Origin: a virus
Direction: 5' to 3' (one strand)
Length of the DNA: 21,913 nucleotides
IMG/VR virus record: IMGVR_UViG_3300042898_001851
Location: 1-21,913 of that record
Below the pieces are notes generated by a model. That model saw nothing but the letters and a program-made list of their open reading frames with translations, was not told the origin of the DNA and did no database searches. The translations under genes and the position numbers were made by a program. Shown here piece after piece: positions 5,763 through 20,801 of this stretch; position 1 is the first letter of the stretch; the number at the start of each line of letters is the position of its first letter.

Positions 5763-6256
5763 TTCTTATCAACCTTATTCAATTCAGTTGCCAGATTGTG
5801 TATGTCTATCATTTCTTTAGGTACGGGGCAATTTTCAATGTACTTAATGACTTCTTCCCGTCTGATTCTCTCTGGGCCTTCGACTTCTTTGATTACTTCT
5901 TTAGTGTTCCATCTATCAACATACTTGATAATGTCATGACCCTTTTCTCTAACGATCTTAGTCTTTTCCACTATCTTTTCTTGTATCTCTACATTTTTTT
6001 CACTAGACTTTGTTTCTGCCTGTGCTATTTTAGCTTCCATCTCAGCAACTTTTAGCTGCCATTCTTTGTTGTCTGCTAATCCACCTTCTAGGTACACCCC
6101 TAGAACAAGTAACAATAGGCTTATGATTTGAATTGCTAATTTATAGGCTTTGACAAAAGGAACAAATCCTAAGGCAAATCCTGCGATTGTGCCCAAAATA
6201 CCTAATCCAAAGATTATGTGTATTGCGGCCTCAGGTAGTATTGATAGTATCCACAT
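5759..6256 (-). CDS. Inner-membrane spanin candidate (Rz-like, two TM segments)
   Basis: A 165-residue protein with two hydrophobic segments (about residues 10-32 and 39-57), then a long charged coiled coil (about 65-130, rich in K, E and Q) and a C-terminal segment with the motif ENCPVPKEMIDIHNLA. A membrane anchor plus periplasmic coiled coil upstream of a lipoprotein is the inner-membrane spanin layout. The second transmembrane helix is unusual, since classical Rz has a single N-terminal one; with two, both ends should face the periplasm. An AAGGA ribosome binding site precedes the ATG. No holin or endolysin is visible in the window, so the lysis set is split or lies elsewhere. Confidence 0.7.
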   Translation of the reverse strand: MWILSILPEAAIHIIFGLGILGTIAGFALGFVPFVKAYKLAIQIISLLLLVLGVYLEGGLADNKEWQLKVAEMEAKIAQAETKSSEKNVEIQEKIVEKTKIVREKGHDIIKYVDRWNTKEVIKEVEGPERIRREEVIKYIENCPVPKEMIDIHNLATELNKVDKK

Positions 6257-6263
6257 AGTATCC

Positions 6264-7223
6264 TTATTTATGCTTTTTGGTTTGTATCATATCCAAAGTA
6301 CAATCACATTTAAATCGAGTACATTCAACTGAATCTAATGCAAACAAGGTTTCATCAAATATTGACCATTTTTCTCCCTCGCCACATACAGCACGTTGTA
6401 TTCTATCATGTGCTATTCGTATGAATTTTTTGCCGGCATCACATGCATACCCATTGAAATTATCTTCCCTTCGTTTTATAAAATTAATAGCATAGTCAGT
6501 CTTTGTTGTTCCGTCATTGTAAACAAAGGTCATTTTACTAGAATTATATGCATATTTTTCTGGTATACTGGATTTTGGTTTAGTATTAAAAGACGGTGAG
6601 AGTTTAATGCTGTGTGCTAATAAGATATTTTGTTGGTGTTCTGAATACTTAGACATTCCAAACTTATCATTTATTTGCTGTAAGTTTACCATTGTGGGGC
6701 AACTATCATAGATTTTATCAAAAGCTTCTACCGCAACATCAAAATATTCAGGAACACATGTTACGTTTGCAGTGACTATTGTTTCAGTATCTTTAAACAC
6801 ATTGATAACATCAATAATATGATTTACATTTGCTTTTTGCTCAGGATGCACACTCACTGCAATAATATCAATACAGTTAGATTCCTTTAACTCTTCCCAA
6901 TATCGTAACGTTCTAGACCCGTTTGTAATGATATGGGTAAAGTTGCCAGTGCTTTTGATAAACTTTAGTAGTTCTATTAGCTTAGGATAAAGTGTAGGTT
7001 CTCCACCTGTTAGTTTAAACCAAACCTTATTATCGCCACTTTGATGAATCAATCTTTTACAGGTGTCAATGTATACATCAATATCTAAATATTTTTTATC
7101 CCCTGACTTAAACTCAGCTGGACAAAAACTACAATCATAGTTACATGTATTACCTAACATCCATTCAACTGTATTATATTGCAGGCCTGTAACTAATTTT
7201 GCTATAATTGGGAATTTACTCAT
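6264..7223 (-). CDS. Radical SAM protein with C-terminal Cys-rich (SPASM-like) region
   Basis: A 319-residue enzyme with the radical SAM signature CNYDCSFC (C27, C31, C34), which binds the [4Fe-4S] cluster used to cleave S-adenosylmethionine. It has a GGEP motif at 73-76 (LTGGEPTLYP) and a barrel-type THIITNGS segment. Five more cysteines near the C-terminus (C261, C280, C301, C306, C308) suggest an auxiliary cluster of the SPASM or twitch kind. It follows the aminotransferase gene after three bases. The start ATG lacks a clear Shine-Dalgarno, and a perfect TATAAATA octamer lies just upstream, overlapping the neighbour's stop. The substrate is unknown; the context suggests sugar, peptide or nucleotide modification. 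Confidence 0.88.
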   Translation of the reverse strand: MSKFPIIAKLVTGLQYNTVEWMLGNTCNYDCSFCPAEFKSGDKKYLDIDVYIDTCKRLIHQSGDNKVWFKLTGGEPTLYPKLIELLKFIKSTGNFTHIITNGSRTLRYWEELKESNCIDIIAVSVHPEQKANVNHIIDVINVFKDTETIVTANVTCVPEYFDVAVEAFDKIYDSCPTMVNLQQINDKFGMSKYSEHQQNILLAHSIKLSPSFNTKPKSSIPEKYAYNSSKMTFVYNDGTTKTDYAINFIKRREDNFNGYACDAGKKFIRIAHDRIQRAVCGEGEKWSIFDETLFALDSVECTRFKCDCTLDMIQTKKHK

Positions 7224-18257: not shown

Positions 18258-19139
18258 TCAGAAACGATGTGTCAAACCTACACCCACTTGCTCAACGTCA
18301 TGTGCTGAACCTGTCTTGTTGACATTGCGATATGCAACAGTCAACGCAGTACGCTTGCTGAAATTATAATCAGCACCTAGTGCGTATGCTTTAACGTCAG
18401 TGTTTGTGGTACCATAACTTGCCTTAGCAGTGATAGAACCGATATCACGTGAGACACCAATCAAGTCACCTTTGCTATTAGTAGCACCTTGGTCATCACT
18501 ATGAGTATAAGTAATTTTGTTACCAAATAACTTAGTGCTTAAACCAACAACAGTACTCTTTTCAGTACCTTGCTCAAAACGAGCGACTGTTGCACCTACG
18601 CCCAATAATGTCGTAGAGCCAGCAACTACCGTAGCTTCTTGTCCTACAATAGTTTGTGAACGCTCATAAGCAACTGCTAAGTTTTTAACAGGAGTTACGT
18701 TAACGAACACTGAATCACCTAAACGTAGATTACGTAGATTGTGAACATCACCTGCAACACTACCAAACAATGTACCGAAAGTATCGTTGTTTGTGATTGC
18801 TAAGAAATGGCTATGAACATTGCGACCTAGGTCAACGCTACCAAACTTGCTTGCTAGACCTACAGTACCTTGACGATCACCCAACTTAGTACCAACACCA
18901 TCGATGGTGTTACCACTTAGAGAGGTTTCGACTATAGCACGTGCAGTTAGACCACCGCTTAATTTTTCAGTAACTGATAACGCAAAGTTACTAGTTGGTG
19001 CAGTAACCAACTGAGTGCTCTTAGTACCGCCTACTGTAGATGAATCAACAAATTCGCTGACTTTACCTGATAAAGCTACTTGAGCACTGGCTAAGCCAGT
19101 AGCCGCCATGAATAATGTTGCCATTACGATTTTCTTCAT
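18258..19139 (-). CDS. Outer-membrane porin with signal peptide (betaproteobacterial type)
   Basis: A 293-residue porin starting at the ATG at 19139, with AAAGGAAA as ribosome binding site; a TTG 11 codons earlier would place a hairpin inside the gene and is rejected. A signal peptide (MKKIVMATLFMAATGLASA, cleavage before QVALSG) targets the Sec pathway. The mature part has alternating beta-strand patterns, GRNVHS and FGSVDLGR segments and a C-terminal YNFSKRTALTVAYRNVNKTG block ending in GLTHRF with terminal Phe for BAM recognition. These are features of Burkholderiales general porins, which are usually 330-400 residues, so this copy is shortened. Porins are rarely carried by phages; acquisition from a betaproteobacterial host is inferred. 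It has its own promoter, leader hairpin and terminator. Confidence 0.9.
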   Translation of the reverse strand: MKKIVMATLFMAATGLASAQVALSGKVSEFVDSSTVGGTKSTQLVTAPTSNFALSVTEKLSGGLTARAIVETSLSGNTIDGVGTKLGDRQGTVGLASKFGSVDLGRNVHSHFLAITNNDTFGTLFGSVAGDVHNLRNLRLGDSVFVNVTPVKNLAVAYERSQTIVGQEATVVAGSTTLLGVGATVARFEQGTEKSTVVGLSTKLFGNKITYTHSDDQGATNSKGDLIGVSRDIGSITAKASYGTTNTDVKAYALGADYNFSKRTALTVAYRNVNKTGSAHDVEQVGVGLTHRF

Positions 19140-19154
19140 AAAATTTCCTTTAAT

Positions 19155-19176
19155 AAAAAACCTGTTTTTCAACAGG
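19155..19176 (-). promoter_or_regulatory. 5' leader hairpin with U-run in the porin mRNA
   Basis: CCTGTT-GAAA-AACAGG, a 6-bp stem with a GNRA tetraloop, followed by six T residues on the minus strand. The predicted transcription start (about 19175) falls at the first bases of the hairpin, so it would form the very 5' end of the mRNA. It could stabilise the message, or act as an attenuator or terminator for upstream reads. Confidence 0.7.
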
Positions 19177-19181
19177 CTAGA

Positions 19182-19210
19182 ATAATATTTATTTGATAAA
19201 AAGCTATCAA
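19182..19210 (-). promoter_or_regulatory. Sigma70-type promoter of the porin gene
   Basis: TTGATA (19210-19205, five of six), a 17-base spacer and TATTAT (19187-19182, five of six) on the minus strand. It overlaps a perfect inverted repeat (19189-19214). It fits the isolated position of the porin between two terminators. Confidence 0.65.
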
Positions 19211-19214
19211 ATAA
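19189..19214. repeat. Perfect inverted repeat over the porin promoter
   Basis: Two 10-base arms (TTATTTGATA / TATCAAATAA) with a six-base centre. It covers the -35 box and most of the spacer, the position of a repressor or activator operator. There is no T-run after it, so a terminator is less likely. Confidence 0.6.
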
Positions 19215-19282
19215 TTTAGTTCATAGAGTAAAGTATACAGTGTGTATGTGTAAAAAGTAAGTCTATTGGGATAATAGATGAT

Positions 19283-19306
19283 AAAAGGCTACTTAATTAG
19301 CCTTTT
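19283..19306 (-). terminator. Rho-independent terminator after the second radical SAM gene
   Basis: A nine-base perfect stem (AAAAGGCTA / TAGCCTTTT) with a six-base loop, 16 bases after the stop at 19323. The flanking A and T runs make it potentially bidirectional. It isolates the porin unit. Confidence 0.75.
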
Positions 19307-19322
19307 ACGCCTCGGTATCACG

Positions 19323-20306
19323 TTATAACAATGCTGTCAACTTTTGGGTTAACATTGATTTATATGTTGTGAGTCGGTACCGCAAATTTTTGAACTGCTC
19401 TCCCTCTAGAATAGACGATGCTTCTTCGATACTATCGAGTGCAATTGGTAGGTCACTAGGTAAAATATTGAACACTGACAACTGATTTGGTAATGTAACA
19501 ATATGGGAAGAGAATCCGCAATTAGGATTTTTCTTTGATACCTTTACGAAATACTTAGCGAGTGAGTGTACATCTATAATAGATATGTTAGTGAATGTAG
19601 AATGAAAGTTCACGCTTACCGGTAGAGTTAGAAATTTCTGTATATTATCATCAACAACTTGCCAATCGGTTCCTTGTCTTTGTTTAACCGCGGTTTCACC
19701 AACACCGTCTATACTAAGATTCAATACAGTCTTAAACTTCAACATCTTTTCAACAAAGACAGGATTATACACACTAGCGTTTGTGTATATGCGTAGTTCC
19801 ATATCAGTTTTGTTTTTGCTAACAAGGTGATCCAACAATTGGTAATAATGTTTGATCAACATAGGCTCGCCTCCGGTGAGTATCAAATATTTCAAACTTT
19901 CAGAGAGGACTAATATTTCTTCCCAATCATTTTCTTTTATATTGAAAACTTCTCCTGCAATCAAAGAGCTATTCTGTGCATTGCACATTATGCATTGAAA
20001 GTTGCACAGATTACTAGTCCTTAATTCCATATAGTCAATGGTGTCCGTAGTAACGTCTTCACCGTATACGTTAAGCATAAATTGTCTAAAGCTCTGTACT
20101 CCTGAATCTTCTAGTTTCTTGCAACTCACACAGGTGGTGTCAAACTCATTATTGATAAATTTCTGTTTTAAATTCTTTAAGTAGTCACTATTTAAGAATT
20201 CGGTAGGTGACATATCAAATCGCTTTGAACTCATACAACAAACTGATGATTTATTAGTGTGATAGTACATTGATCTCCAGGGGGCCGGACAAAAGAATTT
20301 TTTCAT
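19323..20306 (-). CDS. Radical SAM protein with N-terminal Cys-rich domain
   Basis: A 327-residue enzyme. The radical SAM cluster motif CNFQCIMC (C101, C105, C108) lies unusually far from the N-terminus. It is preceded by a Cys-rich domain with FCPAPW (C6), SVCCMS (C23, C24) and TTCVSC (C59, C62) that resembles an auxiliary [4Fe-4S] or twitch/SPASM-type domain placed before the barrel. GGEP lies at 145-148 (LTGGEPMLI), and RIYTNAS and LNLSIDG are barrel strands. It differs in architecture from the radical SAM protein at 6264-7223. A perfect TATAAATA lies eight bases before the ATG and no clear Shine-Dalgarno is present. The substrate is unknown. Confidence 0.88.
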   Translation of the reverse strand: MKKFFCPAPWRSMYYHTNKSSVCCMSSKRFDMSPTEFLNSDYLKNLKQKFINNEFDTTCVSCKKLEDSGVQSFRQFMLNVYGEDVTTDTIDYMELRTSNLCNFQCIMCNAQNSSLIAGEVFNIKENDWEEILVLSESLKYLILTGGEPMLIKHYYQLLDHLVSKNKTDMELRIYTNASVYNPVFVEKMLKFKTVLNLSIDGVGETAVKQRQGTDWQVVDDNIQKFLTLPVSVNFHSTFTNISIIDVHSLAKYFVKVSKKNPNCGFSSHIVTLPNQLSVFNILPSDLPIALDSIEEASSILEGEQFKNLRYRLTTYKSMLTQKLTALL

Positions 20307-20347: not shown

Positions 20348-20531
20348 ACCGAGTTTCTGTTACGAGGTATGTCTTACCCTAAGCTGAGTTTAGGCAGCTA
20401 ATGCGAACTGTGAGTCGTTTGCGTTTACTTTGTTTTGCTTCTTCGACCGGGTCACCCCAATCCTAACGGCTTCTACATTGCCGGACTGTCCATTTCCGTA
20501 CTCTTGACCCAATCGATCCTGTGTCAGGCCC
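20348..20531 (-). ncRNA. ssrA: Permuted tmRNA, coding half (5' acceptor strand, tag frame)
   Basis: The minus-strand sequence from 20531 starts GGGCCTGACACAGGATCGA, like the 5' end of bacterial tmRNA (acceptor strand, then GGATTCGAC-like D-analogue). GGGCCTG pairs with CAGGTCC of the acceptor half over seven base pairs with a G3:U wobble, the alanine identity element. TTGGGTC (20512-20506) pairs with GATTCAA (20777-20771) as helix H2. After a structured pseudoknot-like stretch comes the tag frame with a GCA resume codon (20422), followed by an H5-type hairpin that holds the stop codon in its loop. The 3' limit is set only by the hairpin at 20328-20347. The tmRNA frees stalled ribosomes and tags their products. 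Confidence 0.85.
20390..20422 (-). other. tmRNA proteolysis-tag reading frame (ANDSQFALAA)
   Basis: Ten codons from GCA to GCC followed by TAA, decoding to ANDSQFALAA. With the alanine charged on the tmRNA added first, the tag would be A-ANDSQFALAA. AND at the start and ALAA at the end are typical; the ALAA end is the ClpXP/ClpAP recognition signal. The middle (SQF) differs from the E. coli tag ANDENYALAA. The LAA codons lie in the 5' arm of an AGCTG/CAGCT hairpin as in known tmRNAs. Confidence 0.85.
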
Positions 20532-20532
20532 A

Positions 20533-20727
20533 TCATAAGAAAACTTCTTCACCTTGTTCATCACAAAGCATTGTGTAGAAATCATTTGGTCCGCCTACAT
20601 ACTTGAACATCCAACTACCTTGGCTGACTTCTCTTTCAGTTCGAACTAAAATATCCTTTTCAGAAAACTTAGTGCCAGAAATTACAGGCAATATGTTTCC
20701 GTCACGAGTTTTTACACAAATTTTCAT
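20533..20727 (-). CDS. ORF filling the intervening segment of the permuted tmRNA
   Basis: A 64-residue ORF from the ATG at 20727 to the TGA at 20533. It starts 12 bases after the CCA of the acceptor half and stops one base before the GGGCCTG 5' end of the coding half, so it occupies 195 of the 208 bases that the tmRNA precursor must lose. AAGGAAG precedes the ATG at good distance. The protein (begins MKICVKTRDGNILPVISGTK, later VGGPNDFYTMLCDEQGEE) is of mixed charge and looks like a small beta-rich domain; I do not recognise it. The Shine-Dalgarno, sharp fit and codon-like sequence support a real gene, though it has no homolog I can name. Confidence 0.6.
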   Translation of the reverse strand: MKICVKTRDGNILPVISGTKFSEKDILVRTEREVSQGSWMFKYVGGPNDFYTMLCDEQGEEVFL

Positions 20728-20739
20728 CAAACTTCCTTA

Positions 20740-20801
20740 TGGTGGACCTGGCGGGCACTGCCCCCGCGTCTTGAATCCTTTTCTGTCTACTTCATACAGT
20801 C
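20740..20801 (-). ncRNA. ssrA: Permuted tmRNA, acceptor half (T-arm and CCA end)
   Basis: The minus-strand sequence ends GACGCGGG-GGCAGTG-CCCGC-CAGGTCC-ACCA, the layout of the E. coli tmRNA 3' end (GACGCGGG, T-loop, CCCGC, CAGCTCCACCA). CCA is encoded. The 5-bp T-stem is intact, but the T-loop reads GGCAGTG instead of the usual TTCRANY. GATTCAA (20777-20771) forms H2 with the coding half, and GACTGT (20801-20796) is complementary to ACAGTC at 20489-20484. It lies before the coding half in the direction of transcription, so the gene is circularly permuted as in alpha-, some beta-proteobacterial and cyanobacterial ssrA. The 5' limit is uncertain; the lipoprotein stop at 20809 bounds it. Confidence 0.8.

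Follow-up and report, generated by a model that had tools for sequence, protein, structure and literature searches.

A predicted late promoter and conserved stem-loops in the leader of phage-encoded porin genes

How is a porin gene expressed when it is carried by a large phage, and what part do the inverted repeats ahead of the gene play? The question is raised by a stretch of 21,913 nucleotides from the virus record IMGVR_UViG_3300042898_001851 (the whole 21.9-kb stretch analysed is called the window here), which encodes a T4-type terminase whose closest counterparts among cultured phages (48.7% identity) come from Pseudomonas phage PA5oct and related phages. On the minus strand, at 18258-19139, lies a gene for a porin of 293 amino acids (Porin_4, PF13609; E 6.4e-19) with its ATG at 19139 and a Shine-Dalgarno sequence, AAAGGA, at 19146-19151 that was read in the sequence and is kept in nearly all relatives. 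An earlier note on this DNA had proposed a promoter covered by an operator-like repeat and a transcript beginning with a protective or attenuating hairpin. Reading along the minus strand, the elements to be explained are a TATACT, a conserved block, an inverted repeat, the octamer AATAAATA, a second hairpin, a U-rich stretch, AAAGGA and the ATG.

The porin gene, its relatives and its neighbours

Relatives of the porin were found at 21 viral-contig loci (designated, like their leaders, by L numbers) and then, in a second search, at 50, with identities up to 98%. Two of the 50 (L063, L071) have no start codon; the other 48 together with the window gave 40 distinct leaders. The window and a 139-kb relative are collinear, and 17,856 of the 21,913 bases of the window aligned. 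In cultured phage records neither leader nor porin had a meaningful match, and two pattern scans of species genomes for cellular porin relatives returned 20 and 36 hits, none of which was confirmed as a relative; host porin leaders therefore could not serve as a comparison. Going by these two scans, the porins form a phage-specific clade. The stretches GRNVHSxF and GSVAGDVHN are common to the phage porins (window 18258-19139; L023-L072), and the same scans found them in no cellular relative. A porin encoded by a phage has a precedent in the temperate lambdoid phage PA-2, which encodes an enterobacterial porin; the present phages differ from it in being large, in having a T4-type terminase and in a porin clade that the two scans did not find in cells. 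AlphaFold gave a porin model of moderate confidence (mean pLDDT 64.4), which adds little. In L004/L005 the C-terminal two thirds of the porin (6001-6879) are identical to those of the window's porin and the N-terminal part and leader differ, which, as aligned, is recombination within the gene.

Upstream of the porin leader is a radical SAM gene (19323-20306, minus strand), and between the two the hairpin scan placed a terminator-like hairpin at 19281-19308 (minus), 3' of the radical SAM gene and separating it from the leader. This gene looks like an insertion, because the collinear relative has no aligned sequence there; the window has another radical SAM gene at 6264-7223. Beyond the first lies a permuted tmRNA gene (20390-20801, minus; RF04321, 100.1 bits), which ARAGORN missed in the window; the same program reported a permuted tmRNA in six of 15 related loci (L002, L005, L006, L008, L009, L060). 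The tag in L002 is ANDSQFALAA, and inspection by eye gives the same tag in the window. Permuted tmRNA has already been published for marine and aquatic phages (PMC9004378). The tmRNA is the sole Rfam family in the window; the best Rfam score for the leader was that of RyhB, at 18.2 bits against a cut-off of 55.

A late promoter box and a stem-loop at the predicted 5' end

Of the 40 leaders, 23 have a late box 42-67 nt before the ATG (L062 was removed by hand, and L055 fell beyond the distance limit). In an alignment of 23 leaders the invariant bases are T-A-A-(A)-T-A, a TAAATA box that in the window belongs to AATAAATA (19193-19186, minus strand). The earlier note had placed a -35 box and spacer here, a sigma70 reading that finds no support in the relatives, where TTGATA is not kept and the late-box bases are invariant. 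ATAAATA is also the most over-represented 7-mer upstream of genes in two large relatives, with 45 occurrences against 2.9 expected (168 gene models) and 15 against 1.1 (130), as counted on simple gene models made for this analysis. A gp55-like sigma factor (phrog_12791, E about 1e-72) is encoded in 9 of 16 and 7 of 12 related contigs, among them the collinear 139-kb relative; contigs lacking it may be fragments, and the gp55 gene lies outside the 21.9-kb fragment that is the window. The gp45 model of the T4 family, phrog_223, had no match in 8 contigs, nor anywhere else. Two marks of a T4-type late promoter are present, a TATAAATA-like octamer upstream of late genes, as the box in the window and as genome-wide enrichment in relatives, and a phage-encoded gp55-type sigma in the relatives.

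In T4 the late boxes span -13 to -6, and in many T4-like phages the first T is weak (PMC1524935). The porin box resembles these in the TAAATA of the -13 to -6 element, in its weak first base and in the gp55-like sigma of the same phages, and on its sequence the porin promoter reads as a gp55-type late promoter of the T4 kind. With the box at 19193-19186 and the T4 spacing, the predicted late start (+1) falls at about 19180 (minus strand), within 1-2 nt. That the transcript begins at the hairpin had been claimed before; the predicted start holds, and its basis is now the late box rather than a sigma70 promoter. Unlike most late boxes here, which precede the start codon by 10-30 nt, that of the porin is some 50 nt away because the hairpin fills the leader. 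Many late boxes are just 4-30 nt before a start codon (L086-L101; in the window, for example, 3151, 7235 and 20322, minus strand), so that numerous late transcripts would start with a very short leader or lack one.

The 5'-terminal stem-loop of the window, AGCCTGTT / GAAA / AACAGGTT, occupies 19159-19178 (minus), or +3 to +22 of the late transcript. Its stem (19178-19171 with 19166-19159) has 8 pairs, 3 of them G-C and one G-T, and a GAAA loop, which bears out the GNRA-capped hairpin described earlier. Six T do stand at 19160-19155, as had been reported, yet two of them lie inside the stem and not after it. The best stem begins between +2 and +7 (mode +3) in every one of the 23 late-box leaders, and it is 6 bp or longer in 22, L025 having only 5 bp. 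Between the end of the stem and the Shine-Dalgarno sequence lies a linker of 7-12 nt (mode 8), in most leaders rich in U. Against shuffled sequence the stem was significant (p < 0.05) in 18 of 23 leaders, with a Fisher combination of 5e-19; most leaders are related by descent, and these p-values overstate their independence. On the alignment 87.7% of cells are paired, a count lowered by the arms of L031, L061 and L030 being off by at least one column, and four of six pairs have changed on both sides; the covariation score was 0.305, as compared with 0.215 after shuffling and at most 0.117 after sliding. A GNRA loop caps the stem in 14 of the 23 leaders, and the arms vary in sequence. Eight leaders added later all have a stem of 7-8 bp at +3 (the search pattern included the start of one arm). 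Covariation and shuffling together place the hairpin beyond chance.

By eye, three leaders (L057, L060, L064) have a sigma70-like promoter instead of the late box, with the hairpin still at the expected start. No clear hairpin of this kind was seen in the diverged porin leaders L058, L062, L065 and L069-L072. In the window and two relatives, 16 further late genes have leaders at least 30 nt long; of these, six reach 6 bp and one attains a score of 9, so a hairpin at the start is not a rule for late genes. A small gene of 121-140 amino acids (L088 16752-17174, minus; L101 13006-13371, plus) has, behind a late box, a +2 hairpin the arms of which differ between the two phages yet still pair.

The ompA mRNA is stabilised by hairpins at its leader's 5' end (PMC2777011). 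The porin leader resembles the E. coli ompA 5' untranslated region in that the mRNA of an outer-membrane protein opens with a stem-loop, here predicted to lie within a few nucleotides of the 5' end (from +3 in the window, from +2 to +7 across the 23 leaders), and in the single-stranded U/A-rich stretch before the ribosome site; it differs in being about 40 nt long and in issuing from a phage late promoter. The suggestion that the hairpin protects a 5' end in the ompA manner fits a hairpin that is conserved as structure while its sequence changes, at a start that is predicted.

The upstream inverted repeat and the alternatives

Further upstream, the inverted repeat TTATTTGATA / GCTTTT / TATCAAATAA occupies 19189-19214 (minus), its 3' arm overlapping the late box. 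The arms (19189-19198 and 19205-19214) form the perfect 10-bp repeat noted earlier, with 6 nt between them, and covariation in relatives places it beyond chance. In seven leaders (the window, L023, L024, L025, L038, L102, L119), in which TATACT stands 15-17 nt before the repeat, all 70 of 70 cells are paired and six of ten pairs have changed on both sides; the sole departure from Watson-Crick pairing is G.U (L024, L025, L038, L119). When 31 late-box leaders were tested (L062 left out by hand), the repeat was significant (p < 0.05) in 11 with G.U allowed and in five with A.C allowed instead. The mean folding z-score of the stretch was -1.75 in 26 leaders versus -0.44 at 94 other late boxes. The repeat is missing from the L039/L046 group. 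Similar helices just before the late box were read by eye in L055 and, among relatives of a second protein family (of 181-183 amino acids, described below), in L157, L163 and partly L159; that of L055 begins near the expected start of a TTGAAA/TAAAAT promoter. An operator would be expected to keep its dyad symmetry as double-stranded DNA across relatives; here the pairs are kept through G.U, which breaks that symmetry, and for this reason the repeat is better read as an RNA helix of a longer transcript, from a start that we infer to lie upstream, than as the operator first proposed.

A candidate for such a start is the conserved, porin-specific block at 19208-19237 (minus), in consensus TATACT followed by TTAC.CAAACA..TATTTTATTTG, with the -10-like TATACT at 19237-19232; the block may contain an upstream start or a regulator site. 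As a phage-wide middle promoter it was rejected, since a profile built without L030, L052 and L061 picked out no further good copy, either in two relatives or in the window; the second-best match in one relative was the same site read on the other strand. When offsets in the block were compared, a 22-bp direct repeat came out best (7.50, against a shuffle maximum of 7.38, with L052 and L062 left out); since its place and sequence differ between leaders, it was taken as marginal and not used.

Four other explanations bear on these two helices. A sigma70 promoter with a repressor on the inverted repeat over its -35 box draws on TTGATA/TATTAT, which makes 10 of 12 matches at 19210-19182 beneath the perfect repeat. 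However, the scan found 5 sigma70-like sites where shuffling predicts 6.4, it is TAAATA and not TTGATA that the relatives conserve, and their G.U pairs are at odds with symmetric DNA; on scan counts, alignment and pairing this arrangement was rejected and is very improbable. The position of the late box in the 3' arm of the first hairpin recalls T4 gene e, where late promoters sit near the 5' strand of a structure that is inhibitory (PMC3014915), and with it a switch in which a long early transcript hides the ribosome site and the late transcript does not. As in the gene e and I-TevI leaders, the late promoter overlaps an arm of the hairpin of longer transcripts; unlike theirs, the hairpin here leaves the ribosome site uncovered. 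That site is equally open in both transcripts (unpaired 0.47 in long and 0.48 in short ones) and neither helix contains it, so sequestration in the long transcript was rejected, and a switch of this type is scarcely credible.

For the 5'-terminal hairpin, an intrinsic terminator or attenuator would account for its being flagged by the scan (8 pairs, 3 G-C) and for the 5-7 T within 8 bases after the stem in most leaders. Yet the T do not adjoin the stem in many leaders and number just 2 and 3 of 8 in L030 and L061, while L034, L035 and L048 have none after the stem; the stems of the 23 leaders contain 1-5 G-C pairs, so that a conserved G-C-rich stem running directly into a U tract is not what the leaders share. 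The stem also stands right where its own transcript begins, and no competing fold was seen. Attenuation, one of the two roles first offered for the hairpin, is accordingly improbable. Rather than affecting decay, the hairpin could work chiefly through translation, or could dock a protein or small RNA (at the GNRA loop, or S1/Hfq at the linker), and the steady spacing from stem to Shine-Dalgarno sequence and the mostly U-rich linker speak for such a role; with GNRA in only 14 of 23 loops and arms that vary, no fixed sequence seems to be read, and this explanation is doubtful while still deserving some weight.

A leader shared by different genes

A scan for TAAATATTANTCTAGCC returned 45 stretches, of which 25 have the hairpin and then a gene that starts MKK and is, by eye, signal-peptide-like; the other 20 are unrelated or coding sequence. 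Seventeen of the 25 are on contigs found earlier and eight are new. Behind the leader in L102, L118, L125 and L130 (and L129, by its start only) are Porin_4 proteins 29-45% identical to that of the window. The L102 leader matches the window's at 144 of 151 aligned bases and the proteins are 29% identical; the coding sequence has changed and the leader has stayed. In L119, L133 and L141 the leader precedes a family of 181-183 amino acids without a Pfam match, to which it is not universal (two of 11 loci of the family search, plus L141). Members of this family (L119 1302-1853, L133 687-1238, L141 2838-3383, L155-L165) have a signal-peptide-like start, and as a guess from sequence they may be outer-membrane proteins. 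As these comparisons have it, the leader behaves as a module that stays in place when one coding sequence is replaced by another.

The explanation preferred, to which a probability of about 0.6 is given, is a late promoter followed by a 5'-terminal stem-loop that shields the mRNA and leaves the ribosome site clear, in a modular leader, with the upstream helix belonging to transcripts from upstream starts. A gp55-type late sigma factor would bring host polymerase to the late box; the RNA would begin near 19180 and fold at once into the stem-loop, followed by a U-rich single strand and, about 8 nt on, the Shine-Dalgarno site. By analogy with ompA, the stem-loop most likely puts the 5' end out of reach of 5'-end-dependent decay, and the expected outcome is an outer-membrane protein produced in quantity late in infection. 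The inverted repeat would form a second RNA helix in transcripts that start further upstream. The tight control during infection once proposed is recast here as timing by the gp55-type promoter. A more elaborate version, held tentatively and at less than even odds, is a transferable leader for outer-membrane proteins with nested host-type and gp55-type promoters, the latter in the 3' arm of the upstream hairpin, each transcript having its own 5' stem-loop and unrelated secreted, probably beta-barrel genes being swapped behind it.

Neither part is of a new kind, one being a T4-type late promoter and the other a 5'-terminal stem-loop; a limited search of the literature on phage porins and such leaders found no description of a leader shared by phage-borne outer-membrane-type genes. 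That related phages have this leader ahead of other membrane-type genes too suggests an exchangeable device for the late production of such proteins. Its late box and hairpin offer a simple sequence handle for finding genes under the same regime, and 5'-terminal hairpins emerge as components of late phage messages that evolve. Uncultured large phages bring porins of their own, seemingly with a dedicated late leader re-used for other membrane-type proteins, and this re-use points to a need for rebuilding the outer surface of the host late in infection, which may serve superinfection exclusion, nutrient entry or upkeep of the envelope.
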